A stretch of 64,000 bases of DNA from Desarmillaria ectypa (taxonomy: Eukaryota; Basidiomycota; Agaricomycetes; Agaricales; Physalacriaceae). The stretch is taken from assembly GCA_030407005.1 (NCBI GenBank), contig JAUDYN010000002.1, positions 496,001 through 560,000 on the forward strand, given 5' to 3'. Positions within the stretch are counted from its first letter, which is position 1. Each line of letters starts with the position of its first letter. Under the pieces are notes generated by a model, which was not told the origin of the DNA, made no database searches, and saw only the letters and a program-made list of their open reading frames with translations. The position numbers and the translations under genes are program-made. Positions 25,913 through 55,059 of this stretch are shown here, one piece after another.

Positions 25913-26943
25913 ATGGTGCTCAGCTCATATCGCTACACTCGTTTCCACCGTTCGTCGAGCTCAGATGAGCTGTCCACCAAAGATTCAGATGGTCCCTCCT
26001 CCGAGCATGAACTTGGACCGCTCTGCTCTCACTGCCAGCGCGCACTATCTCATTCCAAAAACTCTGATCCTACGCTCTCGTTCTGGGCTATCATAATCTC
26101 TCTCATTTCCTTGTCTCTCAACTGCATCATCTTCCTCGCCTCATCCAAATTCTCTGACCAATGTATGGACCCCATGTTGTCCGTTACGAACGACAACATT
26201 CACCTCCTCCGCCGGCCAACACCATTCATTGGTTTCGATAATATCACACGACCCGTCCCACCTGTATACAGGGAGTTCATCAATTTCCCTCAAGTCATAC
26301 AGCAAGTCAACAAGGAACGCCCAGGTTTCGTATATGATGACGACCCGCTCAGATACATGAGCAGACGGGGCCTCGTTTCGCCTGAAGAACGCCGCGTCCA
26401 AGCGACCGACAAGGTGATCCAATTCCTTTTTTCGTTTGTTCATTGTTTTGATACATTCCTAGGTGTCCACGCTTGCCCAATTCCGCGCCATCGACTACGG
26501 AATGGAAAGATGCGAGATCCACGTCCGGTTCCCTATCAATACCACGACAGCCGCCTCGTCTGGCCGCCCTTTCTTGCTCTCCGTCAACCGTCTCGAGTCT
26601 CCCATTCCTATCAACACTAAGAAGCTTTCTTATGCGAACAAGCCAGGCTTGGTGTCGACTCTTGCTCAAATTCGTGTCGACCAGGCCAGTGCGGAAGAGG
26701 AGGTCCATTGGTGGCAACGTTTCGATTGTCGGTGGGATGAATTGTTCACGTTTGAACTTGCATGTTCTGATACTGAAAGGCTTGGAGATGGTGCTGACAA
26801 TTGTTGGATTGAGTGGTGGCAGAATAGAGAGGGGAAGGATCCGCGGTCAGGTATGAGTGATTTTTCCCTCGATAGTCGCTGCACCTGACTGACTGTCCCC
26901 TCATAATGCAGCTATATATGTGAAGCAGCATTCGACGGTTTAA
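25913..26943 (+). CDS. Type II membrane protein, But2-C-like family (set A)
   Basis: Three exons (25913-26413, 26463-26850, 26912-26943) join to 306 residues. A polar Ser-rich N-terminus with a CxxC (CSHCQR) precedes one membrane helix (FWAIIISLISLSLNCIIFLA). A lumenal domain follows with the pattern RRPTPFIGFDNI, FINFPQVIQQVN, AQFRAIDYGMERCEIHV, FELACSD and a terminal IYVKQHSTV. This order is shared by a large agaricomycete family that I believe is often labelled But2 C-terminal-domain-like; the function is unknown. It converges on the small peptide gene 345 bp downstream. Two further copies (48201-49212 and the split copy 35810-36481 plus 54566-54747) are pseudogenes, so this is the only intact one in the window. 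Confidence 0.68.
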
Positions 26944-27288
26944 AATATCCAAAAAGACACTTTCATGTATTCAACGTTCTGTATTAAACTGAACTCTGAT
27001 ACATTTCTCTTGGTCAAAATTACATTCAGTGGCGGATGGACTCTATCATGATATTGCAGTCAATATTATGTCAACGCTGAGCGCTTGAAGACTGTATATT
27101 GGACAAGTCGGTTTCGCGTATGAGTAGGTCGTGCATAGTATGATGGCATATATTTCACGACAGCATACACAATATTAACTATCCCGTTCTCTTTGGTGAA
27201 GATTCTTCCCTCTAAAGTGAACATCGTAAACATCTGTGGGAGGTCGTCAAGCCAATAAAACTCACGCAATGATTTCATTCACGGATGC

Positions 27289-27483
27289 TCAAGGACAGTC
27301 TCGTTCCTCGAACTCGCTCTTTGCACTGAGACAGTCCACTAGAAGAGTTCGTAGATTGATTAAGAGATGATGTATGGAAAAAGCCTCATGGCCCTCACCT
27401 TCTTCACTTCCTTCGGTGGAGGCAACGGCTACTGCTGCTGCACAAAAAAGGAGGAAGCAGTAGAATTTGATGGTAAATTGCAT
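27289..27483 (-). CDS. Small secreted Cys peptide, set A (candidate RiPP precursor)
   Basis: Two exons (minus 27483-27399 and 27338-27289) encode 44 residues. Exon 1 gives a signal peptide (MQFTIKFYCFLLFCAAAVAV) and the acidic spacer ASTEGSEE. A phase-1 intron (GTGAGG...CTAG) follows, and exon 2 encodes only VDCLSAKSEFEERDCP and the stop. The core has two Cys separated by 11 residues and a C-terminal Pro, the same frame as copies B and C, although only the Cys, one Phe-Glu pair and CP are shared. Without splicing the frame would continue to a different 64-residue product; the conserved intron in three copies supports the short form. No KR repeat sites as in dikaritin precursors are present. 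The product is presumably secreted; a role is not known. Confidence 0.72.
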   Translation of the reverse strand: MQFTIKFYCFLLFCAAAVAVASTEGSEEGEGHEAFSIHHLLINLRTLLVDCLSAKSEFEERDCP

Positions 27484-28536
27484 CTCGAGTGAACTGTGTA
27501 TCTGGATGGCTTTGGGGTATTATGATGAAAAGGAAGGTCTCTTATATCTCTGCGGACATGAACACAGAGTACCGTTCGCTTGGCTAAACCGAATCGGACC
27601 ATGTAAGTGGTCCGTAGGCTATCAGCTCTCAAGGCTAAACTTAGGGACCTCGATAAATGCGGCTACTGACTTCAGACAGTTTTTCACAAGACATTGCCAA
27701 GCAGCAGTAAGAGCAGGAGATTGGACGACAACAATATACTTAGTGAATAGCTCCAGCGATGTCAAATCACTCGAAGCATCAGGATGATGAACTCGAATCT
27801 ATCACGGTCTTTTTGTGGCGCTCTGATCCAAGGTCTATAGAAAGGCTTTCGCTTTGCGGAACCTTCCGTTTGGCAGGGCGGTAATGCGTACATGTTCAGT
27901 TTCTAATCCCTTACGGGTTCTGTTGTCTGTTCATCATGCAGTTTGATGTCTTGTGAGTAATATACCATGGTACCGGACGGGGATCGTCGTTCATTGGCCT
28001 GCTCAAGTGGCCGTCGAGATCGATCTAAGGCTATTGATATTTAGGCAGAATTTCATTACTTGTGCGGTGTCGCTATCATATCATGACCGTTGGATGGAAC
28101 ATCACATGAGCTAGTGATGAATGCCAAGGAGACATAAGATTTAAGACCGTGCGTACGTCCATGGCCATCCGTACCTTAATCTGATAGCGCTCATAAGCAC
28201 CTACAAGTAGTCACTCATATGCTTCGTCCGTAAAGGGGTTAAAGGTAAAACTATCGAGAATAAGTATTGGGAACGTAAGGGGAGGGGAGACGTTTCATAT
28301 TGGTTCTTTGATTCAGATGGCGATGAAACCTTAAGCATGTGGATCGTAGATTTATCAATCTCTTGTGGAGCCGATACCGTACTAAACTGACGAATTTTGA
28401 AGGACTTTTGTGGTTCTTGCGGGTCGTGGAGGGGCGGGGCTATGAATCTTGCGACGACTATGAAGAAGCAGTGCATAGCAGAGCTACATGAAACCTTAAA
28501 TTGAAGCGGTACTACTCGAGCACAATAGGGATACGG
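27484..28536. other. Peptide-A promoter region and spacer
   Basis: The 140 bp next to the peptide start match the upstream regions of the set B and C peptide genes, including a minus-strand AGATATAAGAGACC TATA-like box at about 27536-27549 and the segment just before the ATG. From 27800 to 28536 I see no gene. Confidence 0.55.
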
Positions 28537-29788
28537 TTAATCAGAAATGGTTGATGTAATGGTCTCCTGACCTCGTGGTTTATCGAAAGTCATACGCTGA
28601 GATGTGAAAGATCCTTGTGGGCGAGAATTATTTGGGAAAGAATCTTCCATGTCCTGCTGGTCCAAGTCTACATCCTGATCTTGCCGAGATCTGAAAATCT
28701 GCGTGGATGTATCCGACGTCCACGCTTGTCCTGAAGATACCCGGAATATAATGAGTAACGGCGCAATAACCTTCGAGACACATTTTAGTGCCTATGTCTA
28801 CACATCGGAAATGTAATGCGTACCTGAACTTGCGATAGTGGTTGAGGGAACAATGTTTGAACAGCACTGTTCAGCCCAAAAGGAACGATGAAAAGAAGTT
28901 GGAACGAGGTGTACAGAAATGAGGATTCGACAATCATGGAAGCGATACTCGTATACTGCCTGCCATAGCTCGGTCCCATGACTTTTGAGACCCTGTATCG
29001 GAACAGGAGGAGGCGGGACACGATAGCGAGCGTCATGGATACGTTGAGAGAAAATGATGTCCAAAAGTACGGCCGAGTGAAATTGATCGTACTAGTTGCC
29101 CATGGCGAGGATGAAGGTGCAGATACTTGGATAAGCCAGAGAAGGCCCAGGACTGTTAGAGGAACCATTAGCCTAAAGATGTTTCGTGATGACAGGGGAA
29201 ATTTCACCCCAGGTAGCCATGTAAGTTAGCCCAGGAACAAGAGCAATGAGCCACCAAGATATTCCTGTTCCTTGATATACGACTAAGCATCTACAGACCT
29301 AGAAATATGGATGATGAGCATTTTCCTTGCATCATTCAGATGACTACTTGCAACAACAGCATCCACGAACCAATTAGACAGTACGAATGCGGCGTTGCCC
29401 ATTTCTGATACTGGAAGCGAGAACATGATTTCCTCAAATGCGGCTGATAATCCATGAGTTTTGCATATGTTGGAGGTAATAGTCAATCTTACAAGGACCA
29501 CCCGGGAAAAGACGACAGTCAATGAAGCTGTACTGGGCCATTGTCGAGGATCCAGCGACGAACATTGTGGCAAATAAGAAGACAAGCGTAACATATACAA
29601 GCCAAAAGGATGCTAGCTTGAATACTCGGCGACGCTTGAGCAAGCGGCTAATGCAGACTACAGTTAGAGTCAACACTATGCCGTAGCCCACTCCCGTAAG
29701 AAAAGCAACGATGAGTCCATGTTCGTTCATCAAGAAGCGTAGCTGAGTCTTCTTCGGGTGTCCAGGAAGGATCAAGTTCAGTAGACAT
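28537..29788 (-). pseudogene. Seven-helix membrane protein, set A (frameshifted)
   Basis: Paralogue of the intact 7-TM gene at 45705. Start MSTELDPSWTPEEDSATLLD at 29788 and stop at 28537. All seven hydrophobic segments can be found across five exon-like blocks, including SRLLKRRRVFK, SSTMAQYSFIDCRLFPGGP, PLTVLGLLWLIQVSAPSSSP and VESSFLYTSFQLLFIVPFGL, plus a C-terminal tail with TSDTSTQIFRSRQDQD. Relative to the intact copy, one extra base near 29733 (within ACATGGACTCATC) breaks the frame before the first helix. An internal Met (MNEHGLIVAF) could restart translation, so a shortened product is possible. Confidence 0.7.
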
Positions 29789-31221: not shown

Positions 31222-31894
31222 TTATCCAATATTGGTACCGCTCATCTTCCAGCCTTGGAACTCCCTCCGTTCCGCATCCAAGGTTGCTAAGGCCTGTTCC
31301 CAGTCATAGCACATCAAGTCATTTCCAATTCTATCCACGGTGAAATTGCGCTTCAAAAAATCACCCTTTTCCAACATATCTGATGCGCCACACAGAAGGG
31401 TCTGTCGGAGATATTGCAAGCAATGGGAAAAATGTCCGGGAGTGGCAACTGCATCATCGTGGTTGATCAGCGCGGCGCGGATTTGCCCAATGCAGTGAAT
31501 GTTATGGAACCATGACAAGATGGTCATGCGGTGGTTCGGACCAAGGTATGAAAGAGAAGGGTAGTCGAGCAATGTCTCGAACTCGGCGCGAGTACTGTTG
31601 TCAGGTGAGTTCCAAGAAAAATGGGTAGACTCTTGGAGCGTGAGGGATACCAGTGGAAGATCCTCAGTCATTGGATGAAGTAAGGGAATGGAACTTCCTG
31701 TGTATGTGTAAGATACTGGAACAATGAGCGAAAGATTGTTTGTGGATAAATGATCTTCAACACGTACTTTGGTCAATGAGTTTGCGTCTTCCGAAGGCCA
31801 CACATTGTAAGAGAACTATACAGACATTTAATGCGGCGAGGATGACAGTCAAAGATCGAGCTCTGGTAAGGCTGGTTATACGTGACTTAAGCAT
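31222..31894 (-). CDS. UstYa-like (DUF3328) oxidase, copy b (set A)
   Basis: Two exons (minus 31894-31768, 31715-31222) give 206 residues. The N-terminal helix is SLTVILAALNVCIVLLQCVA. The lumenal domain has YTYTGSSIPLLHP, LQESTHFSW and both complete HxxHC motifs: FHNIHCIGQIRAAL and HFSHCLQYLRQTLLC, then CYDWEQA near the end. These motifs are thought to bind the metal used for oxidation or cyclisation in UstYa-type enzymes. The phase-1 intron right after the membrane segment is conserved in copy c. This is the only member of the b/c/d group that is intact in the window. The start at 31894 is chosen because it precedes the membrane helix and joins in frame. Confidence 0.86.
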
Positions 31895-32341: not shown

Positions 32342-33615
32342 ATGCTCATAAAGGGCGGTCTCACCGCCCGAGTTGCACCCTCAAACCACGAACCAGTCAT
32401 GTCTAGCACTGTTGGTACAGCTGACTTTGTTGTCGATGGAAAGACTTATCAGACATGGTACATGGTTGTCGGCGACCTCGAGACCTCAGATAAGACGCCT
32501 CTAGTCGCCCTACACGGTGGACCCGGAATGACCCATCACTAGTACGTTCTCGTACCAATATCCCGTACCATCCAGTTACCAACCTTGAAATTATTAGCAT
32601 GTTGTGCGTATTTTCTGTTGCGTAATCTCGGATGAAAGAAGACTGAATGGCATCCCAGACCTAACACGACTCTTTATGAGAAAGCGGGGTGAGCTTTTCT
32701 CTAGACCCATACAAATTTGGCACCGATTTTTTGTAGTATACCTGTTGTGCTATACGACCAGATTGGTAATGGTGCCTCGAGTCATGTAAAGGACGTCCCC
32801 AAGGAATTTTGGAAGCCAGAACTGTTCATGGACGAGTTAGACAACCTCCTTGCACGTTTGGGCATCTCCGACCAGTTTGACTTGCTAGGCCATTCCTGGG
32901 GAGGTATAACTGCTTGGTTTTTGACATTAATCCGTTGATATATCGTCGTCCAGGAATGCTAGCAGGCCATTATGCAGCCGCCCGCACTCCTAAAGGATTG
33001 AAACGGCTGATTATCACTAATGCTCCAGCATCGTTGGAGCTGTTTGAGCAATGTACCAACGCATTGCTTGAACAGTTTCCAGGCAATTTGGCCAAGATTC
33101 TTCGAAAGCACGAGGCCGACGGGACGACCAACTCACCCGAGTACCAAGAGGCAATGATGAAGTTTAATAAGAAACACATCTGCGACATGGATCCATGGCC
33201 GCCGGAGCTGATGCAGAGTTTCGGAGAAGTAATGAGCAACCCAATGGTTTATTCCACCATGTTTGCACTTCGTCTCATACCAGTAGCGGCAACTAATGAG
33301 TCTATAGGTGGGGCACTTCGGACTTTAATTTGACTGGGACTCTGAAAGGCTGGAGTGTAATCGATATTGTGCATAACATCAAAGTACCCTCACTGTTGCT
33401 GAGCGCACCTCTTGATGAGGTTCAACCAGCCGCTTGCTTGCCTTGGTTCATTGGAATTCCTAAAATTAAGTGGGTAGAGTTGCAGCACAGCACTCACTTG
33501 GCGCAGTTCGAAGAACCTGAGAGGTAGAACGAGTTTCATCCTGAAGCAGAGCTTGTGCTGACATTGTTATAGATACTTCGAGGTCGTCTTGGAATTTTTG
33601 AATGCTGCGGCGTAA
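32342..33615 (+). CDS. Prolyl-iminopeptidase-like alpha/beta hydrolase (PIP-2)
   Basis: S33-type hydrolase, paralogue of PIP-1. Visible in order: [67 protein letters not shown] (nucleophile Ser), [42 protein letters not shown] (acid), [13 protein letters not shown] (His) and the last exon [13 protein letters not shown]. The Met at 32399 aligns with the PIP-1 start; 32342 is an in-frame alternative. Introns after HGGPG, after GHSWGG (32904/32955) and before YFEVV are clear. The small exon between HGGPG and IPVV (around 32661-32691) and the join near 33261-33310 each miss the frame by one base with standard splice sites, as in PIP-1, so integrity is uncertain. Confidence 0.72.
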
Positions 33616-35809: not shown

Positions 35810-36481
35810 ATGTTCTCCTTTCCTTCAATTGCATCATCTTCCTCATTTCATCCAAACACTCCCCCCCAGTGTACAGACCTCAAACTGTCCATTATGAGTG
35901 AGAACATCTACCTCCTCTGCTGGCCAATGCAATTTACCGGCTTCAATAATATCACCCGACCTATCCCAAATGTACACTGGGAGATAATCAAATTTCCTAG
36001 ATCGTACAGCAGGTCAACAAAGAACACCAAAATTTGTATACAATGACGATCTGCTGAGGTGCATGAGCAGACGCGGCTCATATCTCCTGAAGAAAGACTT
36101 GTCCAGATAATGGACAAGGTACCTCAATCCTTTCTTTGTTCATAAATTCGCTGTATTGGATATCTTTCATCACATTTCCAGGTGTCCATGCTTGCTCAAT
36201 TCTGCACCATCAACTACGGAATGGAAAGGTGGGATCCACATTCCGTTCCCTATAATACTCAATACCACGACAGCCGCCTCATCTGGCTGTCCCTTCTTGC
36301 TCTCTGTCAACTGCCTTAAGTCTCGCATCCCTATCAACACTAAGTCGATTTCATATGTGAACAAGCTAGGCTTGGTGTCGATTCTTGCTCAAACTCATGT
36401 CGACCCGGGAAGTACAGAAGAGGATGTGTATTGGTGGCAATGGTCCAATTGTCGGTAGGTTGAATTGTGTATGTTTGAACT
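35810..36481 (+). pseudogene. But2-like membrane protein, 5' part (set C)
   Basis: Matches the set A gene from the membrane helix (LNCIIF) through FNNITRP, VSMLAQF-like and TTAASSG blocks to the codons for FEL, where the sequence runs into the copia LTR at 36482 after the 5-bp duplication GAACT. Several frameshifts are present. The missing 3' part (from the same GAACT) is at 54566-54747 on the other strand. Confidence 0.82.
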
Positions 36482-36728
36482 TGTTGAAGATGCACTCAGC
36501 CGCATATGGCAATCTGGCAATCGGAGCAACATTGAAGCACCCAAACCTTTGTGCACCTTCTCCTTGACTCGATCGCCTGTCTGCTCACTCAGCAATGAGT
36601 CAGACATGGACACTAGTAGATGATAGTATATTCTAGAAGTACTCACCTTGTAGTATATATACTGGGCAGACCAGCCCACAAATAATAACAGATTCATACT
36701 CTCACTCTCACCCACATCTCTTATACGG

Positions 36729-38187
36729 TGATATGCCGTCTATGCATTCACACCTAGATTTTGCGATTTTGTAACAATACTATTGCACATCTATCCTATA
36801 CCAGTGATACATAGAGGACTATAGCTGAGGCTTCGAGCTGATAGTTAAAAGCAGTAAGCAACTGGTAGAGCCAGGACTTAGATGCAACACCATTAGTGGG
36901 TTAAATCTACCAGCCGGCCAGACTAGTAACTCGAATGCTAGCAGGACTAAGTGAAATACAGCCACTAGCAAACGAAGGATGCTACTAGCACACAAAAACC
37001 AGGAGCAGAGTACACAGATCTCGTCAAGTTCTGTCACTAGCAGCCCAGACTGGGCATAAACGCCTAAGTCAGGATAACTAGTCACATGGCAATCTTGAAA
37101 CAGGACTTAGAAATAAATTAGGAATGGATTAACCTTGAGCCCAGATCCGACTATTTCGATATAGATCTCTTATGATCGATGCTAGTGGAGCCGGACTGCA
37201 CCCTCGATCATGATCGGATAGCTGTTACAGGCACCAATATCCGGATATCCATATAACCGCGTTACTAGGGCATGTAGTTGTGCCAAGGGTGCGGAAAGAC
37301 CAACTGTGGAGTCTCTAGACCGAATATTTGAAAAGAAAACAGACTAGACCGACTATTGTGTGATTATTCACCATTATTCGTGACTAGCCAAGAAATCCTT
37401 ACCAATATACCCTATACCCAGATAATATTTATAGTTTTGCCTCAGTAGTATATAAGTAGTGGGATGGGCACTCGTGCAAAGCAGGCAAGCCATCCCCACA
37501 GTTGAGCCCTCACTGGTAGTAACTGGTGTCCCCAATTAAAGGCTTTTGTGCTTGACCTCGACGAAGTGATTAATAGTCGCTAAGTCACCCATAGAATTGC
37601 ATTGAATTGAAGTCCATTAGAGTCACTGTTGTGTCCTGCAAAGGTCCGGAGTGTTTTGAAGTTAGTTCAAGCAAAGTTCTCGGAGTTATAGTTTATTCTT
37701 AGGCCAAGAGTGCCACTAGTTAGCCAAGAGTGCGGCTAGTCAAGTGTTTATCACTTGTAGGAAGCAGTATAGGGCCAAGAGTGCCATCAGTTTATTCTTA
37801 GGCCAAGAGTGCCACTAGTCAGCCAAGAGTGCGACTGGTCAAGTGTTTATCACTTGTAGGAAGCAGTATAGGGCCAAGAGCGCCACCAGCCTGAAGCCGT
37901 TTCAGTCAGAACGAGCGCAGTAGCTCAAACCAAGTCACTCTTATCTAATTGTGTCTTACCCACCCCACTAGTACGAGTAGTACTTTGTATAAACTCACTA
38001 GTAACGAATAAAACGTCTTAAAGACAATTGTACTTGATTATTGAAGTCTGCAGAGTGCTTCCATCGTACCCGAAACCGCCCGAATTCAATATTGGTGATT
38101 AAGTGTAGAGTAGTAAGAGGTTTAGTGTGATTGGTGTTCATTGCCATTCCCTAATTCTTTTGTCACTCGCTGTTACCAAGCACATCA
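36729..38187 (+). mobile_element. Solo LTR inserted in the copia 5' LTR
   Basis: About 1.46 kb with ends TGAT...ATCA, flanked by the direct repeat ACGG (36725-36728 and 38188-38191; extendable to ACGGT if the ends are placed one base later). It contains a TATA-like GTATATAAGTAG near 37449 and no coding frame, as expected for a large solo LTR of a different family. The parent element is not in the window. Confidence 0.75.
37691..37889 (+). repeat. 99-bp tandem duplication inside the solo LTR
   Basis: Two copies of a 99-bp unit starting GTTTATTCTTAGGCCAAGAG, with only a few differences; inside each unit the short motif GCCAAGAGTGCC recurs. Probably an LTR-internal repeat. Confidence 0.8.
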
Positions 38188-38249
38188 ACGGTCAAATCTC
38201 GTAGTTTACCACTGCACTCATAACCACTGTTACACACTCTTTTACAACA

Positions 38250-38261
38250 GGTTATGGGCCC
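38250..38261 (+). other. Copia primer-binding site (initiator tRNA-Met half)
   Basis: GGTTATGGGCCC directly after the LTR end is one mismatch from the complement of the anticodon stem-loop of initiator tRNA-Met, the half-tRNA priming mode known for several copia elements. Confidence 0.65.
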
Positions 38262-38334
38262 CGGCCCTAACTAATCTACAGAAGACTCACCATAATTAAT
38301 TACCTCACTGAACTACAATCCACCCCCATATATC

Positions 38335-39152
38335 ATGTCCGACACCGCACCCTCATCATTATTCTGCATTGAGCTACTCCAGGAGCACAACTGGGTTCTG
38401 TGGAAGCATCGTGTCACTGCAATCCTGTGAGAATGAGCCCTGTTGAAGTACGCCAATGGAACATTGAATAAACTGGTTCCGACAGACCCAAATTCGCTAA
38501 CTAAGGAAGAAATGGATGAAATCACAAAGTGGAAAGAGGGAGATGGACAAGCGCAGACCCAAATTGAGCTCACGTTAAGTGATTTGCAGATGATACACAT
38601 CATGAGGGCAAAAACATCGGCTGAAATGTGGACGCAGCTTAAATTAGTAAAAGAAGCTAGAGGAAAATTGGGAATACTCACACACCAACGCTGTCTTTAC
38701 TGCACTGTGACTGACGAGTCCACAGACATTGTTGAGCACACCACAGAAATGCACTGAATCTAGGAAGAGCTTGGCATGCTGGGGAGTATCATCACTGATG
38801 AAGACTTCCTAATGCTGCTCATATCATCACTACCAGAATCCTGGGACCAGTTCACATTAGCATATCTAGGATCCACTGGAAATAACCCAACAGTCACATC
38901 GCATGAGTTCATTGCCATCATTCTGGAAGAGAACCATCAACAGATCGAAAAATCTGGTGGAAGTGAAGCCACTATGTATGGGCACAATAACAGAAAGACA
39001 GGCAGTGGAAGTAGCCAAGGGAACTCCACAAATGAGGCCACACATCAGCACAGTGTTGGTCCAAGAGCGGCGGCCAAGAAGGGAAAGGTCCAGGAAGAAA
39101 GCAGGGAAAGAAGAAGAAGAAAAGGTCTAATCAGGCAAAAGATTCAGGAAAT
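38335..39152 (+). pseudogene. Copia gag remnant
   Basis: Starts MSDTAPSSLFCIELLQEHNW, followed by a TGA-interrupted Gag domain (TLSDLQMIHIMRAKTSAEMW, then DFLMLLISSLPESWDQFTLA). Near 39036 the next frame carries GHTSAQCWSKSGGQEGKGP, the second half of a CCHC knuckle whose first Cys codons are lost. Gag and pol therefore sit in different frames (pol is -1 relative to gag), through either a real frameshift site or a small deletion. Confidence 0.75.
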
Positions 39153-42100
39153 GTGAAGGATGATGTTGTTGAAGCCACTTACAATGTAGAGTCTAAGCCC
39201 CAATTTGACTCACATTTCTCCACTTACAGCTGGCTATCTGACTCTGGAACAACCTCACATATCTCCAATCGCCGAGAAACCTTCATAGACTTCAAGCTGC
39301 TCAAGGCCATGACCATCGCAGGCATTGGAAATACGTCCATTCGGGCACTAGGCTGAGGAACAGTCCTGTTAGACTGCAAAGTCAATGGGAAAACCATCAC
39401 TCACAAACTGAAAGATACACTCTATGCACCAAATGCTGTAAACAACCTAATCTCCATCAGCAGGCTCGATGATGCTGGTATAGAAGCTTCATTCAAGAAT
39501 GGCATAGTCCAGTTTCTCCAAAAGGATGGGAAAATCCTGGCAGAAGGAAAGAAGACATGCCATTTGTATTTGATGAATGCTCGAGCACGTGACACTGTAC
39601 AAGAACAGTCAAACATTGCCAACACCAAAAATACAAACACATGGGATGCTTGGCACAAATGCATGGGACATCTAGGGAAGTCAGGGTTAGAGTGATTGAA
39701 GAGGAAAGGATTGGTGGAAGGATTCATAGTTGATGACAACTCACCTCCACTCAGTCAATGCAAAGCTTGCATCCAAGCCAAGATGACTCTTCGCCCATTC
39801 CCACAAGAAGCAAAACATCGAAGTGAGAAACCAGGGGAAACCACACATGGTGACATCTGGGGACCAGCCCGAGTTGAGTCCCTGCAGAAGTCAAAATACA
39901 ATATTACGCTCACGGATGATGCAACCCAGCAATGTACACCTGAATTTATGAAATCGAAGTCAGAAGCATTCCAGAAGATTAAAGAATATGTCACCTTCAT
40001 CGAAACACAGCATGGATTCACACTAAAGACACTACATGTCGACAATGTAAAGGAACTCACTAGTGGGGAGGTCAAACAATGGTTGAAGAAGAAAGGAATA
40101 CGACTACTCATACCAGCACCATACACACACTCATCTAATGGTGTAGCTGAACACTTTAATTGCACACTAGTGGAGCTAGCATGAGCCATGATGATAGCCA
40201 ACAACGTACCATCATTCCTGTGGGAGACAGCAATAGAATACGCAGCATACATCAGAAACCGTGCACCAACATGAGCTCTTGACAGGAAAACACCTGAAGA
40301 AGCATGGACAGGAAGAAAACCCGATGTCTCGCACCTACAAGAGTTTGGTTGTGCAGTCTGGATCAAATGGGAAGGAATCAGTCTTTCAAAGCTGGGCAGA
40401 AACTCAGGAAAAGCAAAGAAACATACCTTTGTGGGATTCACAGAGGATGCAACAGTTATCAAATACTACGATGCAGAACTTCACACAATCCGAGAATCCC
40501 GGAACTACAAGTTTATTGAGCCCATGGCTATAGAACAAAGCACAGACAATGTGCGGCTTGAGGGGGAGGCAGCAGAGATGAACAACCTGCCATTGCCAAA
40601 GGGAGCTGAAGAAGGAAGTCAGCAAACCACATCACTACAGCCTGAAACCAAAGAAACCCCTGAGCCAACACCAGAAGCAATACAACGCACCTCACGTATT
40701 ACTAGTAATCATGACTACCACAAGCTCAACAACCCCAATGCATGGAAAGCAGCACCATCACGAACTCCATTGGCCCTATCCAAACATCCCCCAGAATCAA
40801 CAAATGTTGCAATGAATCAAAGCTATATTGTCAGTAATGGCGAGCACATTAATCATGACAACTTCCCACAAAGCCTTGCAGAGGCACAAGAATCAGCAGA
40901 ATGGCCTGAATGAAAGAAGGCTATGGATGAGGAAATGTCAATGATTAGAGAAATGGGGACTTACAAGCTTGAGGATCTACCAGAGGGACGTGAAACTATA
41001 GGCTGCAGATGGACCTACGTGAAGAAATATGATGAGCATGGAAAAGTTCTACGCTACAAAGCCCGCCTCGTAGCACAAGGCTACTCACAGATTCCAGGAG
41101 TCGATTTTATGGAAACATTTGCACCAGTCGTCCGTCTCGAATCTGTTCATGCTGCACTAGGTATAGCTGCCATCAAAAACCTCGAAATCGGTCAAATGGA
41201 CATTAGAGGAGCTTATCTAAATGGAGAACTTGAGGAAGAAATATACATGCGCCAGCCTCCAGGCTACAATGATGAATCGGGACGCATCTGCAAATTATAC
41301 AAGACCCTCTATGGGTTAAAACAGTCAGGACGCGAGTGGAACCGTGAATTCAATAGGAAACTCACCTCCATTAGATTCTCAAAGCTCGAAGTCGACCATT
41401 GCATCTATAAATGCGTCCAAAACAGCAGGACAGTATTCCTGACTGTATGGGTTGATGACCTGCTGATTTTCGCAGAAATACCTGAGGATCTAGACAGAGT
41501 AAAAAAGGAGTTAGCAGGGCTATTCAACATCAAAGATATGGGAGAGCCAAAAAAAATCATTGGGATTGAAATAGAGAGGAACCGCGACCACAACACCATC
41601 TCATTATCCCAGCAACAATACATCAAGGGAATACTCACCCATTTCGGCCTCCACAATGCATCACCCATTACCACTCCACTTGATCCTAATGTCATCCTGC
41701 GAAAGTGACCAGCCAATAAACATGTCGAGCCTACCATCCAAGGCAGATATCAGTCTGCTATTGGCTCATTGATGTATGCCGCAATTTGCACATGGCCCGA
41801 CATCGCATATGCTGTACAGTTGTTAAGCCAGTTCTCAAATAACCCAGGTCCCGAACACTGGTCAGCTGTAAAGTGAGTGTTTAGGTATCTATCTGGAACT
41901 AAGAACTTAAAGCTCACCTTCCGAGCCAATAAAGAACACAAGGTTCTCAGTGCCGGTTACACAGATGCAGATTACGCATCCAACCCAGATGACCAAAAGT
42001 CAGTCTCAGGCTACACCTACCTGTTGGGAGGTGGAGCATTCGCATGGTCATCCAAGAAACAGTCGACTGTTGTCTTATCATCCACAGAAGCAGAATACAT

Positions 42101-42416
42101 GGCTCTAGCACATGCAACACATCAAGCAATCTGGAATTGCAATTTCTTAGCTGAATTGGGTTACATTCAAGAAGAACCTACTCTGGTATTTGAAGACAAC
42201 CAATCCACGATCACCATCACCAGAGATCCACAATATCACGCATGGTCGAAGCATTTTGATGTGCAGAATCATTTTGTCTGCGAAAAAGTAGAATCTGGGG
42301 TTATTGAACTATTGTATTGCCCCATCGATGAAATGGTTGCCGACATTTTTACGAAAGCATTGCCGAGACCCAAGCATGAGAAGTTCGTTTGCGAATTAGG
42401 CCTATTGCCGTCTTGA
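39153..42416 (+). pseudogene. Copia pol (protease, integrase, RT, RNase H) with seven TGA stops
   Basis: One frame runs through YSWLSDSGTTSHIS (protease), WHKCMGHLGKSG and HGDIWGPARV (integrase), GCRWTYVKKYDEHG, GAYLNGELEEEIYM and VWVDDLLIF (reverse transcriptase active site) and ADYASNPDDQKSVSGY with SSTEAEYMAL (RNase H), ending at 42416. Stops at 39354, 39693, 40182, 40272, 40911, 41706 and 41874 are all TGA, mostly at positions where the family has Arg. The copy at 55060-58153 shares all seven. Confidence 0.93.
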
Positions 42417-42423
42417 GGGGGAG

Positions 42424-42728
42424 TGTTGAAGATGCGCTCAGCCGCATATGGCAATCTGGCAATCGAAGCAACGTTGAAGTGCCCGAACCTTCGCGCACCT
42501 TCTCCTTGACTTGATCGCCTGTCTGCTCACTCAGCAATGAGTCAGACATGGACACTAGTAGATGATAGTATATTCTAGAAGTACCCACCTTGTAGTATAT
42601 ATACCGGGCAGACCAGCCCACAAATAATAAGGGATTCATATTCTTACTCTCACCCACATCTCTCACACAGTCAAGTCTCATAGTTTACCACTGCACTCAT
42701 AACCTCCATTACACACTCTTTTACAACA
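42424..42728 (+). repeat. Copia 3' LTR, copy 1
   Basis: 305 bp, TGTTGAAG...ACAACA, preceded by the purine tract TTGAGGGGGAG. Near identical to 54748-55052 (reverse strand). Confidence 0.92.
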
Positions 42729-43177
42729 GTTGTTTGTCGGCTGACAACGGCGTACGTATTCGGTGAAAAAGTGGAGATGTTTATACTTCAGAAGCGCTGA
42801 AAAGGTACCACCATCTCATGAGGACCATTGATGATAGCATTGTATATTCGCCAACAAAGATCGGAGCAAGTTTGAACAAAGTCCGAGTCCCGAGAAACTC
42901 CGTAAGAAAGTATAGTCAAGCTCCGCTTGCCATACAGGATGATGCCGGCATGGATTCTGACTCCGTGCCACGAATCTGATGATGCTGCATTTACTTCCTG
43001 GTTCTTTCGAAATACCCATACCTGTCTCGGTATTTTTAGTATTTTTTTAGTATGACTATTGGCTCCTAATTCTCAGTTCGATATCAGCTCTAGTGGTTGC
43101 CTAACTTGGTGCTCTACTTACATCTCCACTTTGAGTCCAGTTCTCCTTGACATAGTGATTCATTCTCTCTCTTAATC
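42729..43177. other. Unassigned flank; inversion breakpoint side
   Basis: Sequence right of the copia 3' LTR does not continue the But2-like gene found on the left. It also contains the promoter of UstYa-like copy c. No gene seen. Confidence 0.5.
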
Positions 43178-44485
43178 ATGGCAAAGATGCGTGTCAACCT
43201 AGTTGCACGGTTACTAACTCTCACCCTTCTTCTGTTTAATCTTTGCATTGTTTTATGGCAAGGCATGGCGTTCCAAAAACGCAGAGTGTTAGGAATCTGC
43301 CGAAATCAGGATATGAGAGTGAGGGGCGACAAGTGATGATCGAAGCGAGGTAGGATATGTTATAGAGATGTATGTCGTTAGGGAATAGAATAGATTCCAG
43401 CAAGGGTTCATGAGGAGACCTGAGAGGTCCAGTTTGCGAGGTAAAGGGGTCAGTAAGTGCAAAGCAGTTACTGTAGGAAGCAGCCGGTGAGCGCGGAGCT
43501 ATTATGGGCTGTAGATGAAGACAAGCGCTAGGCATAGTCTTCGGATTGGTGTTGGAAAGTGCTTGGCATATCCAACGAGTTGTTCAGCAAGCGCTAGGCA
43601 TAACTGATGAGGTTTCTGACAAGCGCTAGGTGTAGTCAGGAAGCGAGGAGATTGGCAAGCGCTAGGCGTAACCGATCAGATGCTTAGTTCACACAATGAA
43701 GTGGACTTGAAGATGAGTAGCTTGATTTCTTTTTTCTACAAGGTTACAGATGGTATTTATATACTAAAAGGCTCGAGTCATGAATATTCTACAATGTTCT
43801 ATTATATTCTAGTATGAGCAAGAAGAATAGAGAAAGTAAAAGAAAATTATGTGTGAGTCACTGCTAGGACCGAGAAGGCCGAGTGTAGGCATGCGTTGAC
43901 TCATGCACCGAGTTTACAGATACTCAAGATCCATGACACAGAGCCGCTAATAAAAGTGAATAAGTTTCGATTATCTCCAAGGTAATAAACGGACTCACGA
44001 TTTCAGCCTCAGTATCATACACCTATACAGGAAGCTCGATTCCTCTGCTTCATCCGGCGACGGGAAACCTCCCACTCGTCTCTCTTACGCTCCAAGAGTC
44101 CACCCATTTTGCTTGGGACTCTCCTGACAACAGCACCCGCGCAGAATTCGGATCTCTCCTCCACTATCCTTCTCTTTCACACCTCGGACCCAACCATCGA
44201 ATGACTATCCTCTCGTGGTTCCATAACATCCATTGTATTGCCCAAATACGCGCTGCATTGATCAACCACGACGACAAGGTGGCCACACCCGGTCATTTTG
44301 CTCATTGCTTGCAGTATCTGCGGCAGACACTTCTGTGTGGCGCGTCGGACATGCTTGAGAAAGGCGACTTTATAAAACGTGATTTTGCGGCGGATAGGGT
44401 CGGGAGCGATTTAGTGTGCTATGACTGGGAACAGGCTTTAACGACTCTGAATACAGAACGTAAGGAATTCGAGAATGGAGTATGA
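43178..44485 (+). pseudogene. UstYa-like (DUF3328) oxidase, copy c, split by solo LTR (set B)
   Basis: Exon 1 starts MAKMRVNLVARLLTLTLLLF (membrane anchor) and is interrupted at codon 36-37 by a 652-bp solo LTR (43287-43938) with CAGAG duplicated. After the LTR the exon resumes to 43955; the intron runs to 44012, and exon 2 (44013-44485) is fully open with FHNIHCIAQIRAAL and HFAHCLQYLRQTLLC, both HxxHC motifs complete. Apart from the insertion no lesion is seen, so loss is probably recent. The exon/intron layout is identical to copy b. A transcript from inside the LTR could in principle express exon 2 without its anchor. Confidence 0.88.
43287..43938 (+). mobile_element. 652-bp solo LTR in UstYa-c
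   Basis: Ends TGTTAGG...CATGACA, flanked by the 5-bp duplication CAGAG (43282-43286 and 43939-43943). It contains a TATA-like TATTTATATAC near 43755 and five spaced copies of AAGCGCTAGGCATAG-like sequence between about 43520 and 43675. No coding frame. Its parent element is not in the window. Confidence 0.88.
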
Positions 44486-45704: not shown

Positions 45705-46965
45705 ATGTCCACTTACCTCGACCCCACTTGGACGCCCGACGAAGATGGAGCGACGCTTCTGGCTGAGAGGACATGGCTCATCGGGGCAATTCTTACGGGA
45801 GTGGGCTACGGAGTAGTCCTGACTCTAACCTTGATCTGCATTAGCCGCTTGCTCAAGCGGCGTCAAAGGTCCAGTACCAAGCAGACGTACTTTTGGCTTG
45901 GATATGTCGCTCTCGTCTTTTTGTTCGCTACGATCTTCATTGCTGGGTCCTCGACGATGGCTCAGTACAGCTTCATTGACTACCGACTTTTCCCTGGGGG
46001 TCCCGGTAAGAACGGAGGCTTTTCTACTGTCAGTTGTGTGTGACTTGTGGATCTTCTAGCGCAATTTGAGAACCTCATGTTCTCGATACCCGTATCGGAG
46101 ATGGGAAATGTTGCCTTTGTGCTGTCCAACTGGTTTGCGGATGCTGTTGTTGTGAGTACCTCCTTCGTAATGACGTAGAAAAATGCTTACAGTCGGGGTT
46201 TTAAGATCTGGAGATGTTTGGTTATCTACAAAGGAACAAGATTCTCTTGGTGGCTGGTTGCTCTGGTTCCATGTTTGACATACATGGCCTCTTGGGGTGA
46301 GTTTCGGCTTTAGTTACCTTGCGCCCCTGGCTCACCGCTTCTCTGACAGTACTTGGTCTCCTTTGGCTCATCCAAGTATCCGCACCCGCATCCTCACCGT
46401 GGGCAACGAGTTCAATTAATTTCACTCAACCATACTTTTGGACGTCGTTCTCCCTGAATGTGTCCATGACGCTCGCCATTGTCTCGCGTCTCCTGGTTTA
46501 TCGATACCGGATATCCAGCGTAATGGGATCTAGCTACGGCAAACAGTACACGAGTATCGCCTCCATGATTGTCGAATCCTCCCTGCTGTACACCTCATTC
46601 CAACTTCTCTTCATCGTTCCATTCGGACTGAACAGCCCTGTTCAAACAATATTCATCCAGCCACTATCGCAGGTCCAGGTCTGTCGATGTATATTATCTA
46701 GGCTAGATCTATTTTACTGAGATACGTTGGAAAGGTCATCGCGCCGCTGCTCATTATTTTCCGAGTATCTTCAGGCCGAGCGTGGACATCGGATACTTCT
46801 ACCCAGATTTTCAGATCGCAAAAGGAGAGTGATATAGAGATGGCACGACAGAATGTGAAGGTTTCGTTCCCGGGTGATTCCAATGCTGGGAGCTCCTTGA
46901 CATCCCGGCCTATGGAATTTTCCAAAGCTCAAGGACAGGAGACCTTTACATCGACCATTCCTTAA
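45705..46965 (+). CDS. Seven-helix membrane protein, set B (intact)
   Basis: Five exons (45705-46005, 46060-46151, 46206-46296, 46350-46678, 46735-46965) join to 347 residues. Seven hydrophobic segments: LIGAILTGVGYGVVLTLTLI, FWLGYVALVFLFATIFIAG, an AFVLSNWFADAVVIWRC block, WWLVALVPCLTYMASW with LGLLWLIQV, FWTSFSLNVSMTLAIVSRLL, YTSFQLLFIVPFG and VIAPLLIIFRV. The signature SSTMAQYSFIDYRLFPGGP lies in the loop after helix 2, and a polar 65-residue tail ends TFTSTIP. This is a family I know only as uncharacterised agaricomycete membrane proteins. The topology is receptor-like, but there is no match that I recognise to the STE3 or cAMP-receptor types. It sits between the UstYa-like and peptide genes in all three sets. 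Confidence 0.82.
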
Positions 46966-47866: not shown

Positions 47867-47923
47867 GACCTTCTCTTTCATCATAATACTCCAGAACTCA
47901 CCCAGACACACAGTTCACTCGAG

Positions 47924-48119
47924 ATGCAATTTACCATCAAACTCTACTGCTTCCTCCTCCTTTGCGCAGTAGCAGCAGCAGCCCCCGCCTCCACCGAAGG
48001 AAGTGAAGAATGTAAGGTCAACATTTTTCCATATATCATCTCTTTTGACCAATTTACAAACTCTTTTAGCGGTCTGTGTGAGAAACGGCGTGTTCGAGGG
48101 AGGAGGGCAGTGTCCTTGA
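47924..48119 (+). CDS. Small secreted Cys peptide, set B (candidate RiPP precursor)
   Basis: Exons 47924-48011 and 48070-48119 encode 45 residues: signal peptide MQFTIKLYCFLLLCAVAAAA, spacer PASTEGSEE, then the exon-2 core SVCVRNGVFEGGGQCP. The intron is phase 1 as in set A. The two core Cys are 11 residues apart and Pro is last. The frame is open far upstream, but the ATG at 47924 is the one conserved in all copies and starts a good signal peptide. It faces the But2-like pseudogene and follows the 7-TM gene. Confidence 0.75.
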
Positions 48120-48200
48120 TAACTACCATAATTTTGACCAAAGGAAACGGATCGTTTTAATACGAAGCGTTAAATGCATTAATGCGTCCTTTGCGATATT

Positions 48201-49212
48201 TCAAACTGTCGAGTGCTGCTTCACATATATAGCTGCATTATGAGGAGTCAGGTAGTAAAAGATGGCAGATATCGAGGGAAAAATGATTCATACCTGACCA
48301 CGGATCCTTCCCCTCTCTGTTCTGCCACCACTCAACCCAGAAATCGTCAGCACCATCTCCAAGCCTTTCAGTATCAAAACATGCAAGTTCAAACGTGCAC
48401 AATTCATCCCACCGACAATCGAACCGTTGTCACCAATGAACCTCCTCTTTCGTACTTCCCGGGTCAACACGAATTTGAGCAAGAGTCGACACCAAGCCTG
48501 GCTTGTTCGCATATGAAATCGACTTAGTGTTGATAGGGATGCGAGACTCGAGGCGGTTGACGGAGAGCAAGAACGGCCAGACGAGGCGGCTGTCGTGGTA
48601 TTGATAGGGAACGGAACGTGGATCTCACCTTTCCATTCCGTAGTTGATGGTGCGGAATTGGGCAAGCGCGGACACCTGGAAATGTATCAAAACAATGTGT
48701 AATTGAAAAAAAAAGGAACTGGGCTACCTTGTTGGTCACCTGGATGCGGCATTCTTCAGGCGAAACGAGGCCTCATCTGTTTATGTATCTGAGCGGATCA
48801 TCGTCATATACGAAGCCTGGTTGATCCTTGTTGACTTACTGTATGACTTGAGGGAAGCCGATGAGCTCCCCTGTATACAGGTGGAACGGATCGCGATATT
48901 CTCGACATCAATGAATGGTGTCGGCCGGCGGAGGAGGTGAATATTGTCATTCGTAGCGGACAACATGGCGTCCGTACGTTAGTCAGAGAATTTGGATGAG
49001 GCGAGGAAGATGATACAGTTAAGAGACAGAGATAGAAGGGGAACTATGATGGACCAGAAAGACAAGGTGGAATAAGAGCCGGATAGCGGACGTTGACAGT
49101 GAGCGCAGAGCGGTTCGGGCGAAGATATAGTATCCGAAACTTCCGCGGACAGCTCATCTGAGCTTGAGGAAGGTTGCAGGAGACGGTAGCTAAATGAACT
49201 GAGCACGATCAC
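48201..49212 (-). pseudogene. But2-like membrane protein, set B (decayed)
   Basis: Same layout as the set A gene, but the start codon reads ATC, a TAA follows SSKFSD (CAA to TAA), there is at least one frameshift after FIDVENI, and a TGA lies before GLVSPEE. The C-terminal exons (QFRTINYGMER-like, FELACFD, WWQNREG) are still well conserved, so decay is moderate. Confidence 0.85.
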
Positions 49213-51584: not shown

Positions 51585-51755
51585 ATGCAACCAGTCTACC
51601 TCATCCTCTTCTTTGCTCTTGTGGCTTCCATCACTGGCACCCCGATTCCATCTGAGGAAGGGAGTGAAGAAGGTTAGCCTGTCTCTGTAGCTCCTCACAT
51701 CCCAATCAGTGATATACATTATGTTATAGGGTTATGCCCAGTCAAAAACCAATGA
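51585..51755 (+). pseudogene. Second-type peptide gene, set C (core truncated)
   Basis: Exon 1 (51585-51672, 88 bp, the same length as in peptides B and C) gives MQPVYLILFFALVASITGTP then IPSEEGSEE. A phase-1 intron ends TTATAG, and exon 2 gives only GLCPVKNQ before a stop. The leader differs in sequence from the main peptides but keeps length, signal character, EGSEE and intron phase. The core has a single Cys, so it is either a relic or a shorter variant. Confidence 0.55.
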
Positions 51756-52153
51756 TGCTCTTAATACCAATACACCGAAGCCAAGTCTATATCAACACCT
51801 TCATGAGTCTCTTTTTTCAATGCACTGCCACCTCTAATAATCTTGAAGAGAAAGTTTCGTTATGACAAAGGGATAGAATTTATGCTGCCTCTGTATCGTG
51901 ACTCAGAAATCATACTGTGTTCTACTGTCGACATATGTGTCCTTCCTGTGCGAATATACCTTTCCTTGAACAAAATACAGTCTTCTGTGTCTTCAAGTCA
52001 ATGTAAGTAGTTGGTCTTTGTGTTCCGAGGCTCAAGCTCCAAATGACATGTTATCAATGCCTCCTGATAGCACTGAGAACAAAGTTACACGAAGGTTAAA
52101 TGCATAGTTGTATGCCTTTCAAACCAGAAGCATGCTGATAAATTTCACAGGAA
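51756..52153. other. Spacer, nothing recognised
   Basis: CpG-poor sequence between the second-type peptide and the UstYa relic; the N-terminal exon expected for UstYa-d is not recognisable here. Confidence 0.45.
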
Positions 52154-52435
52154 TTGGACCTTATCATTTATTGCATTGCACAGATCCACGCTGCCTTGAT
52201 CAGCCACAATGACACAGTTGCCACTCCCGAACACTTTTCCCATTGCTTGCAATATCTCCAACAGACCCTTCTGTATGGCACATCGAATATGTTGAAAAGG
52301 GGTGATTTTTTGAAGCACGATTTAACTGTGGATAAAAGTGACTTGGTTGCACTATGTCTGGGAACAGGCTTTAGCTTGGACGTGGAATGGAGGGAGTTCC
52401 AAGGCTGGAAGATGAGCAGTGCCAATAGTGGATAA
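52154..52435 (+). pseudogene. UstYa-like oxidase relic, copy d (set C)
   Basis: Matches exon 2 of copies b and c from IHCIGQIRAAL onward: IYCIAQIHAALISH, HFSHCLQYLQQTLLYGTS, EFQGWKMSSANSG at the end. The first HxxHC is damaged, a Cys near the second is Tyr, and the upstream 60 percent of the exon plus exon 1 are missing. Confidence 0.8.
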
Positions 52436-53054
52436 AGACGAATGCTGAACAAAAGCTGAGTTTTGCTTGTTTTTTCATAATATGTGAAAGTCAGCTTTCT
52501 TAAATGCTTTAGCGCAGGCTGTAGTTTGGTGATGGTTGGTTGGGTCCTCCATACAAGCGGTCGCAGAGACCACAGAGATCATAGTAACCTCTTGCTTGGA
52601 GAATACGGTGATTGCTCAGAACTCTCTTAATTGCGTCTCGTATGTCTTTGACTTTAATCCCAATATCATCATGGCTCAAAAAGCAGCTAAATTCTCCGGT
52701 CAACTGATGTGAAGCTTCGTACGAAGTTAGTTGATCTTATGCACACCGAACATGGACCTAGGGGAGACTAGCATTGATGTATATCGAAGACAATCCACAC
52801 CACACAAAACCTTCACATCATCCATGGATGAGTGGAAAGGTAGGCTTGAGTAAACGTCAGTTGGACCGTGCCAGTGGCATTGAAGTAACAAAGCATGGCA
52901 ACTTGAATACCATGTTTCACCTACGTTCAAGATCTTTCTTGCTTGGGTCCGTAGGCTATGCTTTCATGGCTGTCACATACAGATCATCGTCTGATTCATC
53001 AACGGACTTGTGTCAAATGGTGTGAACACCTGTAGCAACGTGACTGTCTATTTA
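52436..53054. other. Spacer in set C
   Basis: Where the body of a 7-TM gene would be expected by analogy with set B; no helix-coding block is recognisable. Confidence 0.45.
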
Positions 53055-53230
53055 GATCATCCACACAGATTTTCAGATCTCGGCAAGATCAGGATGTAGA
53101 GTTGGACTAGCAGGACATGCAAGTTTCTTTCCCAAATAATTCTCACACACAAAGCTATTTCACATCTCAGTGTATGACTTTTGCTAAACCACGAGGTCAG
53201 GAGACTATTACATTGATCACTTCTGATTAA
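53055..53230 (+). pseudogene. 7-TM protein relic, last exon only (set C)
   Basis: The stretch CAGATTTTCAGATCTCGGCA through GGTCAGGAGACTATTACATT to the stop at 53228-53230 matches the last exon of the set A 7-TM gene. Upstream exons are gone. Confidence 0.75.
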
Positions 53231-54015
53231 ATATGTTCCTATGTTTCTTGAGTAGGTCTCAATCTAAGGCACCCTCCAGGCCATATATCACTAATTGCAA
53301 CCTTAATTGCTGTGCCCCTCAACCTGCAATATCTAAGAACATCTTAAAATCTCATCGCTATCTGAGTCAATGAACCAGTATGAAGCCTTCTAGTTTCTAC
53401 GCCCCAATACATATTCCCAGATATAGGTTCAAAACATTTTTTTTGACTTTCTTGATATGGTGTCAGAATCAATGGACAAAGTAAATACAAGTAAGGGACT
53501 ACATGACAACACTTATATGTCTGTTGTCCAGTTAAAGTCACTACAGATAGCGATGGATGTATGCATGGTCAGGCATCAGAAGTCGCAAGGAAACAGAAGC
53601 TGAATCTGCGTGTATCACCGACTGAGCATGGGAAGGTACCGCAGAGTGAACATCAAAAATGAGGCTTTCTATGGATCTTGAATCAGAAAAACATTAATAG
53701 ACTGATAGATTTCAGTTCATCATCCTCAAGTATTGATGCCTTGACTCCACTAGAACTGCATGCTATACTGTTGTGGTCCAATCTCCCGTTATCACCGCTG
53801 CTTCATGTTCTCTTGTTGGAACTTTGAAGTCAGCAGCCATGTTCCTCGAGGTTGCTAAGTTTGATATTGTGAGTTGTAGGAAAAACATGGCCTGTTATGG
53901 TCTGATTCGACTTCATCCAGTGAACCGTGCCATACATTCACTCTACAGAGATATAAGAGACCTTCTCTTTCATCATAATACTCCAGAACTCACCCAGACA
54001 CACAGTTCACTCGAG
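53231..54015. other. Spacer and peptide-C promoter
   Basis: From about 53720 it matches the upstream region of peptide B with many CG-to-TG/CA changes and a 10-bp deletion; the TATA-like GATATAAGA lies near 53950. Confidence 0.55.
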
Positions 54016-54211
54016 ATGCAATTTACCATCAAACTCTACTGCTTCCTCCTCCTTTGCACAGTAGCAGCAGCAGCCCCCGCCTCCACCAAAGGAAGTGAAG
54101 AATGTAAGGTCAACATTTTTCCATATATCATCTCTTTTGACCAATTTACAAACTCTTTTAGCGGTCTGTGTGAGAAATGGCGTGTTCGAGGGAGAAGGGC
54201 AGTGTCCTTGA
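54016..54211 (+). CDS. Small secreted Cys peptide, set C (candidate RiPP precursor)
   Basis: Exons 54016-54103 and 54162-54211 encode 45 residues. Leader MQFTIKLYCFLLLCTVAAAA, spacer PASTKGSEE, core SVCVRNGVFEGEGQCP. Relative to peptide B: Ala to Thr in the leader, Glu to Lys in the spacer, Gly to Glu in the core. Start, splice sites, both Cys and the terminal CP are kept although every other gene of set C is destroyed. Either decay is too recent to have hit this short target, or the peptide is still used. Confidence 0.72.
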
Positions 54212-54565
54212 ATAGAGCATGAATAAAATTATTGCGCAAGTTTCATTCGACTTGATGACCTCCCACCAATGTTCACAATGTTTATTTTGTAGGGAAGAAT
54301 CTTCACTAAACAGAATGGAATGTGTCTTGTAGCTAATTTTGTTTATCACGTCGTGAAATATATACTGTTATATCATGTGCATCCTATGTAAAAGTGATTC
54401 GTCAAGGATATAGTCTTCTAGCACTCGTCATTGACACAATATTGACTGCCAGATCGTACAAGTCAGGAGATTGAGTCCAGTTGCTAAATACCATAATTTT
54501 GACCAAATAAAACGGATCGTTTTAATATGAAGTGTTAAATGCATTAATGCGTCCTTTGCGATATT

Positions 54566-54747
54566 TCAAACTGTTGAGTGCTGCCTCACATATATAGCTG
54601 CATTATGAGGAGTCAGTTAGTAGGAGGCGGCAGATATTGAGAATTCATACCTGACTGTGGACCCTTCCCCTCTCTGTTCTGCCACCACTCAACCCAGAAA
54701 TCGTCAGCTCCATCTCCAAGCCTTTCAGTATCAAAACATGCCAGTTC
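54566..54747 (-). pseudogene. But2-like membrane protein, 3' part (set C)
   Basis: Read on the minus strand it begins GAACT directly at the copia LTR, continues GGCATGTTTTGATACTGAAA, encodes ERLGDGADDFWVEWWQNREG, and ends IYVRQHSTV-like after the last intron. It is the continuation of the 5' part at 35810-36481; both halves have the GAACT target duplication next to the LTR end. Confidence 0.85.
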
Positions 54748-55052: not shown

Positions 55053-55059
55053 CTCCCCC

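Follow-up and report, generated by a model that had tools for sequence, protein, structure and literature searches.

Dikaritins, the ribosomally synthesized and post-translationally modified peptides (RiPPs) of the ustiloxin, phomopsin, asperipin-2a and victorin type, come from clusters in which a UstYa (DUF3328) gene with HXXHC motifs lies near the gene for a secreted precursor. In a survey of Kex2-processed repeat proteins (KEPs), DUF3328 neighbours are given for only 103 of 1680 KEPs of Basidiomycota (Umemura; PMC7329392). For lichen UstYa clusters without a recognised precursor, another study names a single core as one possible reason why no repeats are seen (PMC12048977), and Pleurotus alone is credited with 16 UstYa genes, 6 of them developmentally expressed (PMC8893723). 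Here we describe a 64-kb stretch (the window; positions 496001-560000 of contig C12, 4,373,583 bases) of the 40.6-Mb genome of the agaric Desarmillaria ectypa, in which genes for UstYa-like oxidases, small two-cysteine peptides, seven-transmembrane (7TM) proteins and But2-like proteins are linked. Our preferred reading, offered with moderate confidence, is that the genes belong to a family of UstYa-type (dikaritin-like) clusters for ribosomal peptides, present at several sites in this genome and partly in related Agaricomycetes, the window version having a precursor with one core and two cysteines. Coordinates without a contig prefix are window positions, and the contig labels C1, C3, C12, C23, C27, C28, C30 and C31 are distinct from the labels C2 and C3 given to two peptides of the third gene set.

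In set A, from 25.9 to 31.9 kb, the order is But2-like (+), peptide (-), 7TM (-), UstYa (-); set B, from 49.2 to 43.2 kb, is its mirror image. The initial annotation had this four-family order recurring three times. Sets A and B do show it, but they are the only places in the window where all four families stand together; the third set consists of fragments, disrupted by the insertion of a copia element and a proposed inversion, and "threefold" was an overstatement. Because the sets are related duplications of mixed age, they are not countable as independent evidence, and we rejected their treatment as independent repeats. The type 1 UstYa gene of set A (31222..31894, -; exons 31894-31768 and 31715-31222, intron bounds placed by eye) encodes HNIHC and HFSHC. 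That of set B (43178..44485, +) encodes HNIHC and HFAHC but is probably disrupted, its two coding parts standing about 0.7 kb apart; a repeated CAAGCGCTAGGC motif occupies 43520-43670 within this long gap. Both sets give a PF11807 match (39.6 bits, cut-off 25), which, with the two HXXHC motifs in each, bears out their naming as UstYa-like oxidases. A type 2 UstYa main exon at 23151..23630 (+), absent from the initial annotation, carries HQLKC, its first motif being degenerate.

The evidence that carries the preferred reading is linkage across the genome. A search with UstYa gave 18 exon matches in eight regions, the window included; since the genome searches score best candidates only, this and the other family counts are lower bounds. 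Canonical (two HXXHC) and degenerate (HXXK/RC) UstYa genes occur together in the window, on C23 (two pairs), and on C28, C31 and C1. The 7TM subfamily of the window is present in five of the eight UstYa regions (window, C23, C28:2.81 Mb, C31 and C27). Outside the window, five of its seven loci lie 5 kb or less from a UstYa gene, compared with 0 of 44 other 7TM loci (Fisher 8.9e-6), and with a 30-kb radius the counts are 6/7 and 1/44. Because the two loci on C23 are related to each other, as are the two on C28, we also counted by region, by hand, and 4/5 subfamily regions are near UstYa. The 44 control loci are what is left of 49 7TM exon matches after five belonging to the linked subfamily or the window were dropped. 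In a tree built on 11 of 71 homologues and about 116 columns, the subfamily was separated, with support of 0.998, from 22 control loci (20 fetched, plus C28:236k and C1:1.25M). The other 22 controls were called generic because the window 7TM query missed them; three generic loci (two on C30, and C23:3544k) weakly matched the query from contig C3 and matched the C28:236k query better. The C28:236k gene itself has a UstYa gene 8 kb away but groups with the controls in the tree, and it was counted as one of them (1/44 within 10 kb).

The clusters differ in which further families they hold. UstYa, 7TM and But2-like genes are grouped on C23 and on C31, UstYa and 7TM genes on C27, and UstYa, 7TM, iminopeptidase-like and peptide genes on C28, where a second group of 7TM, But2-like and peptide genes lies about 27 kb away. 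But2-like genes were found in four regions only, namely the window, the inside of the C23 cluster, C31 (2 kb from UstYa) and C28 (where the gene adjoins the second 7TM copy and UstYa is 28 kb away). The set A gene (25913..26940, +) is open, with about 3 exons and one N-terminal hydrophobic stretch, and the set B gene (48204..49209, -) is a pseudogene with several stops. For the But2-like membrane protein of the initial annotation, Pfam is silent on the window protein itself (no match to PF09792), but seven of nine scanned homologues (P0072-P0080) match that family, the best at 1.3e-8; the Armillaria ostoyae homologue scores 21.5 bits, below the cut-off of 24.2. A search of the genome with PF09792 returned no match, either for the family or in its controls. 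Two prolyl-iminopeptidase-like hydrolase genes, each traced through matched exons (21266..22385, -, and 32405..33524, +), flank set A, as had been noted; TIGR01250 (proline iminopeptidase) is the best family for their partial exons, with a score below cut-off. Four genes of this type were found. Three are on C12, and the fourth belongs to the C28 cluster, where it separates the 7TM gene from UstYa; one further weak match lies at C27:1.90 Mb. The third C12 gene (about C12:564327-565465) lies past the right end of the window after another retroelement, 24 kb beyond UstYa B. All four But2-like regions and all four iminopeptidase-like genes are thus in or near UstYa/7TM clusters.

Cross-species linkage covers 7TM/But2 and the peptide, and "same contig" here means contigs of equal size. 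The 7TM and But2-like genes have adjacent locus tags in Paramarasmius palmivorus (011457/011456) and tags five apart in A. ostoyae (08359/08354). In A. solidipes, and also in A. borealis, where the But2 match covers only 26% of the query, homologues of both lie on equal-sized contigs, taken as one. In Marasmius tenuissimus the two matches come from different assemblies. The neighbourhood check in related genomes that the initial annotation had proposed was passed in part, with the genes close in A. ostoyae and P. palmivorus but on different contigs in Tetrapyrgos nigripes. Its interpretation of the locus as a RiPP-like or peptide-signalling system is partly supported by this linkage, which recurs in the genome and, for 7TM/But2, in related species. 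Judged from gene neighbourhoods, assignment to a UstYa-type RiPP cluster family is well supported.

Common to the four peptide genes are a signal exon, a leader that ends in GSEE and a phase-1 GT..AG intron, which splices in frame in every case. Precursor A (27289..27483, -), 3.7 kb from UstYa A, has a 60-nt intron and a second exon encoding (V)DCLSAKSEFEERDCP. Precursor B (47924..48119, +) reads ...STEGSEE-SVCVRNGVFEGGGQCP, with the core (S)VCVRNGVFEGGGQCP, and precursor C3 (54016..54211, +) reads ...STKGSEE-SVCVRNGVFEGEGQCP, its core being almost that of B. Precursor C2 (51585..51755, +; ...SEEGSEE-GLCPVKNQ, core (G)LCPVKNQ) is diverged and has one Cys. The small Cys peptide first described is present in each set, with two Cys in A, B and C3; the signal peptide is predicted from hydropathy only. 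The window peptides have a single core without KR, RR or KK. The two Cys are 11 residues apart in A and B and 12 apart in the A. ostoyae peptide described below, a spacing that permits one disulfide. Basidiomycete mating pheromones carry a C-terminal CaaX; the window peptides end instead in CP (A, B, C3) or NQ (C2).

A scan for a signal exon, a phase-1 intron and a short exon with exactly two Cys, its settings chosen after the peptides were known, picked out A, B and C3 in the window and nothing else. It gave 0 matches over 60 kb of control loci and a single one across ten shuffled 64-kb windows. A profile search (E up to 10) found two proteins, the D. ectypa copy of peptide C3, whose public model (P0083) retains the intron, and A. 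ostoyae ARMOST_08386. The latter was independently annotated in spliced form as MQFTVKLYCFLLLCTAAAAVAVDSTEGSDE-VRCLADELAGLEGRDCP (the dash is our added junction), and it supports the splice model in that the leader and the Cys/CP frame are common to it and the window peptides while the core is different. Its contig is equal in size to that of the But2 (08354) and 7TM (08359) homologues.

Precursor-like genes also accompany several of the other clusters. At C23:3356355-3357080 a gene adjoining one UstYa pair encodes MKLSLINVILFAAFVHAVPG and, after it, five cores (VDVPASMEGLTGASPDTAF and variants), each some 20 residues long and set apart by RR or KR, a Kex2 precursor on the KEP plan in which each of the four inner cores is one 66-nt phase-1 exon between GT...AG introns. 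Beside the second C23 pair is a diverged relative ending in KREIDMDVPAAMAKLSDGAIAYSFK, in frame by manual splicing. ORFs between the two pairs (open reading frames; L011 5300-6576) resemble a cytochrome P450; NCBIfam, run on one ORF, gave no family. Two homologous two-Cys precursors with a phase-1 intron are present on C28, at 2809479(-) beside the UstYa cluster and at 2843734(+) beside the second 7TM/But2 group. Elsewhere on that contig (C28:229.3-230.5k), near a UstYa gene, a signal peptide is followed by repeated short SYANGPDTYWVRD segments, a candidate multi-core precursor bearing Tyr/Trp. On C27, two tandem small signal-peptide genes (3691895 and 3693338) have as neighbours a diverged 7TM gene and two genes for UstYa. 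Compared with the precursors at several sister clusters, the window peptides appear to be a one-core variant of a common precursor plan. The initial annotation had proposed a single-core RiPP-like system; this fits the window peptides, and the C23 sister cluster has a multi-core precursor with Kex2 sites.

A typical cluster comprises a precursor, a canonical and a degenerate UstYa, a 7TM protein of the subfamily and often a But2-like protein, with an iminopeptidase-like gene in two clusters. The precursor gene is modular, a signal exon followed by one or more short exons at phase-1 introns. Its product would enter the secretory pathway, where the membrane-bound UstYa pair may oxidise the core; proteases would free the core, which would then be secreted. 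The two-Cys peptide is the likely UstYa substrate. The 7TM protein, predicted to be N-out/C-in, may sense the product or protect the producer. A bolder and less likely reading is that Agaricomycetes carry a family of self-contained signalling cassettes of an oxidised ribosomal peptide, paired UstYa enzymes and their own 7TM receptor, in which exon-modular precursors let the core diversify while the enzymes and the receptor are conserved.

The most serious alternative accepts a working UstYa RiPP cluster and gives the 7TM protein a role other than reception, as a scaffold, an exporter partner or an enzyme; we rate its chances as only a little below even. The set B gene (45705..46962, +) is open, with 5 exons by manual splicing, and the set A gene (28546..29788, -) has its frame broken near the start, the public model P0013 starting inside it. 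Hydropathy over 40 homologues gives seven hydrophobic peaks and a predicted N-out/C-in topology like that of G-protein-coupled receptors (GPCRs), with mean Lys+Arg in alternating loops of 3.6, 1.1, 3.8 and 6.8 inside and 1.2, 1.6, 0.3 and 0.2 outside. This upholds the description of the gene product as a 7TM protein and speaks against a non-receptor role, as do, as weak evidence, the automatic UniRef names of homologues, 'Taste receptor type 2' and 'Fungal pheromone mating factor' among them. For a non-receptor role speaks the lack of convincing family matches: the window protein has no Pfam family, Pfam gave for the 40 homologues weak matches in 1 or 2 members each (a Srg chemoreceptor match in one, at E 1.1, is chance-level), and a PDB sequence search found no match to any receptor family. 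Reception of the peptide by the 7TM protein is possible; self-protection may also be suggested.

A plain disulfide-bonded secreted effector or antimicrobial, placed in the cluster by chance while the UstYa pair acts on some other precursor, seems unlikely. The two Cys that allow one disulfide, the absence of Tyr and of a Kex2 site, and a fast-evolving core would suit such a peptide. Within the peptide genes, nonsynonymous change affects 13/35.3 sites of the core exon and 5/65.3 of the signal exon (p=0.0006), while the two exons do not differ in synonymous change; in overall identity the core exon (37/47) comes near the intron (46/56), and the signal exon (76/85) is higher. Positive selection on the core was considered and rejected, the ratio of 2.09 resting on only 2 synonymous and 13 nonsynonymous changes and being not significant when compared with synonymous sites (p=0.46). 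Against the effector explanation, a repeat scan recognised no repeat-type coding precursor in the window on which the UstYa pair could otherwise act, and UstYa genes on C23 and C28 likewise have precursor-like neighbours in which a signal exon is followed by a phase-1 intron.

That the window sets are decaying relics, the working system being elsewhere in the genome, is likewise improbable. Several copies are indeed broken: But2 B has stops, the frame of 7TM A is changed, UstYa B is interrupted and the third-set pieces are partial. The third But2-like copy is split into a 5' part (35812..36483, +) and a 3' part (54569..54756, -) 18 kb apart, each stopping at a copia-type element, the five bases GAACT being found on either side; a UstYa fragment (52166..52432, +) and a 7TM 3' fragment of about 50 aa (53057..53212, +) complete the set. 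Inverted copies of the element (36483-42729 and 54747-58153) bracket a probably inverted block, and the part at 39323..42729 (+) matches 54747-58153 in inverted orientation, the two differing at 6 positions over a length of 3407. As the simplest history we propose a single copia insertion in But2 followed by inversion between inverted element copies, which would have flipped the block containing set B; when this inversion is reversed on paper, all three sets share one orientation. Transposon insertion and inversion of this kind suit a relic, but by our reading an open copy of each family is left (But2 A, UstYa A, 7TM B, the type 2 UstYa exon and the peptides). Between sets A and B, moreover, 32.7 of 362.7 nonsynonymous sites are changed in UstYa (dN 0.096, dS saturated) and 7TM dN/dS is 0.05 over 110 codons, values that point to strong purifying selection on both.

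Mere chance association of large gene families is very improbable and was rejected: although the 7TM superfamily is large (the 49 exon matches), linkage is confined to one subfamily (5/7 against 0/44 for the generic control), the But2-like and iminopeptidase-like genes found in our lower-bound searches are nearly confined to clusters, and the linkage recurs in other species.

Several observations weigh against the ribosomal-peptide cluster family that we prefer. Three of the eight UstYa regions (C12:392k, C28:227k and C1) showed no subfamily 7TM gene in the stretches read, C1 and C12:392k having been read in 10-kb stretches only; at C1 there was just a weak match over 31 positions (E 0.007). 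The subfamily 7TM gene of contig C3 has no UstYa match on the same contig. In the canonical UstYa of C31 the second HXXHC is replaced by YVHHC, and in that of C1 no second motif was seen. No convincing precursor was found at C31, and at C27 the search for But2-like genes gave nothing better than E 0.45. ARMOST_08386 is 27 locus tags from the A. ostoyae 7TM gene. A large part of the window set is broken, and cores A, B and C3 lack the Tyr and the dibasic site of known dikaritins. Finally, peptide genes A and B have a dS of about 0.2 and are far younger at silent sites than the UstYa and 7TM copies, which suggests a later exchange or duplication for the peptide genes than for the genes around them; the older 7TM/UstYa copies and the peptide copies would then have partly separate histories.

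A few other features of the window were recorded. Between sets A and B, the DNA of the But2/peptide part (25.9-27.5 against 47.9-49.2 kb) is more similar than that of the 7TM/UstYa part (28.5-31.9 against 43.2-47.0 kb), a mosaic of ages that perhaps reflects gene conversion. A 99-nt tandem repeat at 37690-37887 was considered as a precursor and rejected, being non-coding in appearance. Large ORFs with a zinc knuckle at 58616-63135 have the appearance of a gypsy-like retroelement, and an Rfam scan of 20-60 kb gave no match.

One-core and exon-split precursors could account for part of the low count of UstYa-linked precursors in Basidiomycota; a repeat-based search would not see one-core precursors like those of the window. 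A UstYa pair, this 7TM subfamily and a short signal exon with a phase-1 intron together make a usable search rule. Should the 7TM protein prove to be the cognate receptor, peptide communication in mushrooms would become directly testable. Our literature search, which covered few subscription papers, found no description of a UstYa/7TM/But2 cluster.

Among described systems, the fungal peptide pheromone/GPCR pairs resemble these clusters in having a small secreted peptide gene near a 7TM gene with GPCR-like topology; they differ in that here there is no sequence match to known receptors, no CaaX end, and oxidase genes are present. KEPs (PMC7329392, PMC6339444, PMC9769878) share the signal peptide and the short secreted peptides, and the C23 precursor follows their plan, but the window peptides lack repeats and Kex2 sites. 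The lichen UstYa clusters (PMC12048977) are without a recognised precursor, whereas here specific one-core candidates can be named, for which a second species has a homologue. With the dikaritins these clusters share HXXHC-bearing UstYa near a secreted precursor gene and, in the C23 sister cluster, core repeats separated by Kex2 sites. Unlike them, the window precursor has one core with two Cys, no dibasic site and no Tyr, and the clusters described here add a 7TM subfamily, often a But2-like protein, a degenerate UstYa partner and, on C23, an arrangement of one core per exon.

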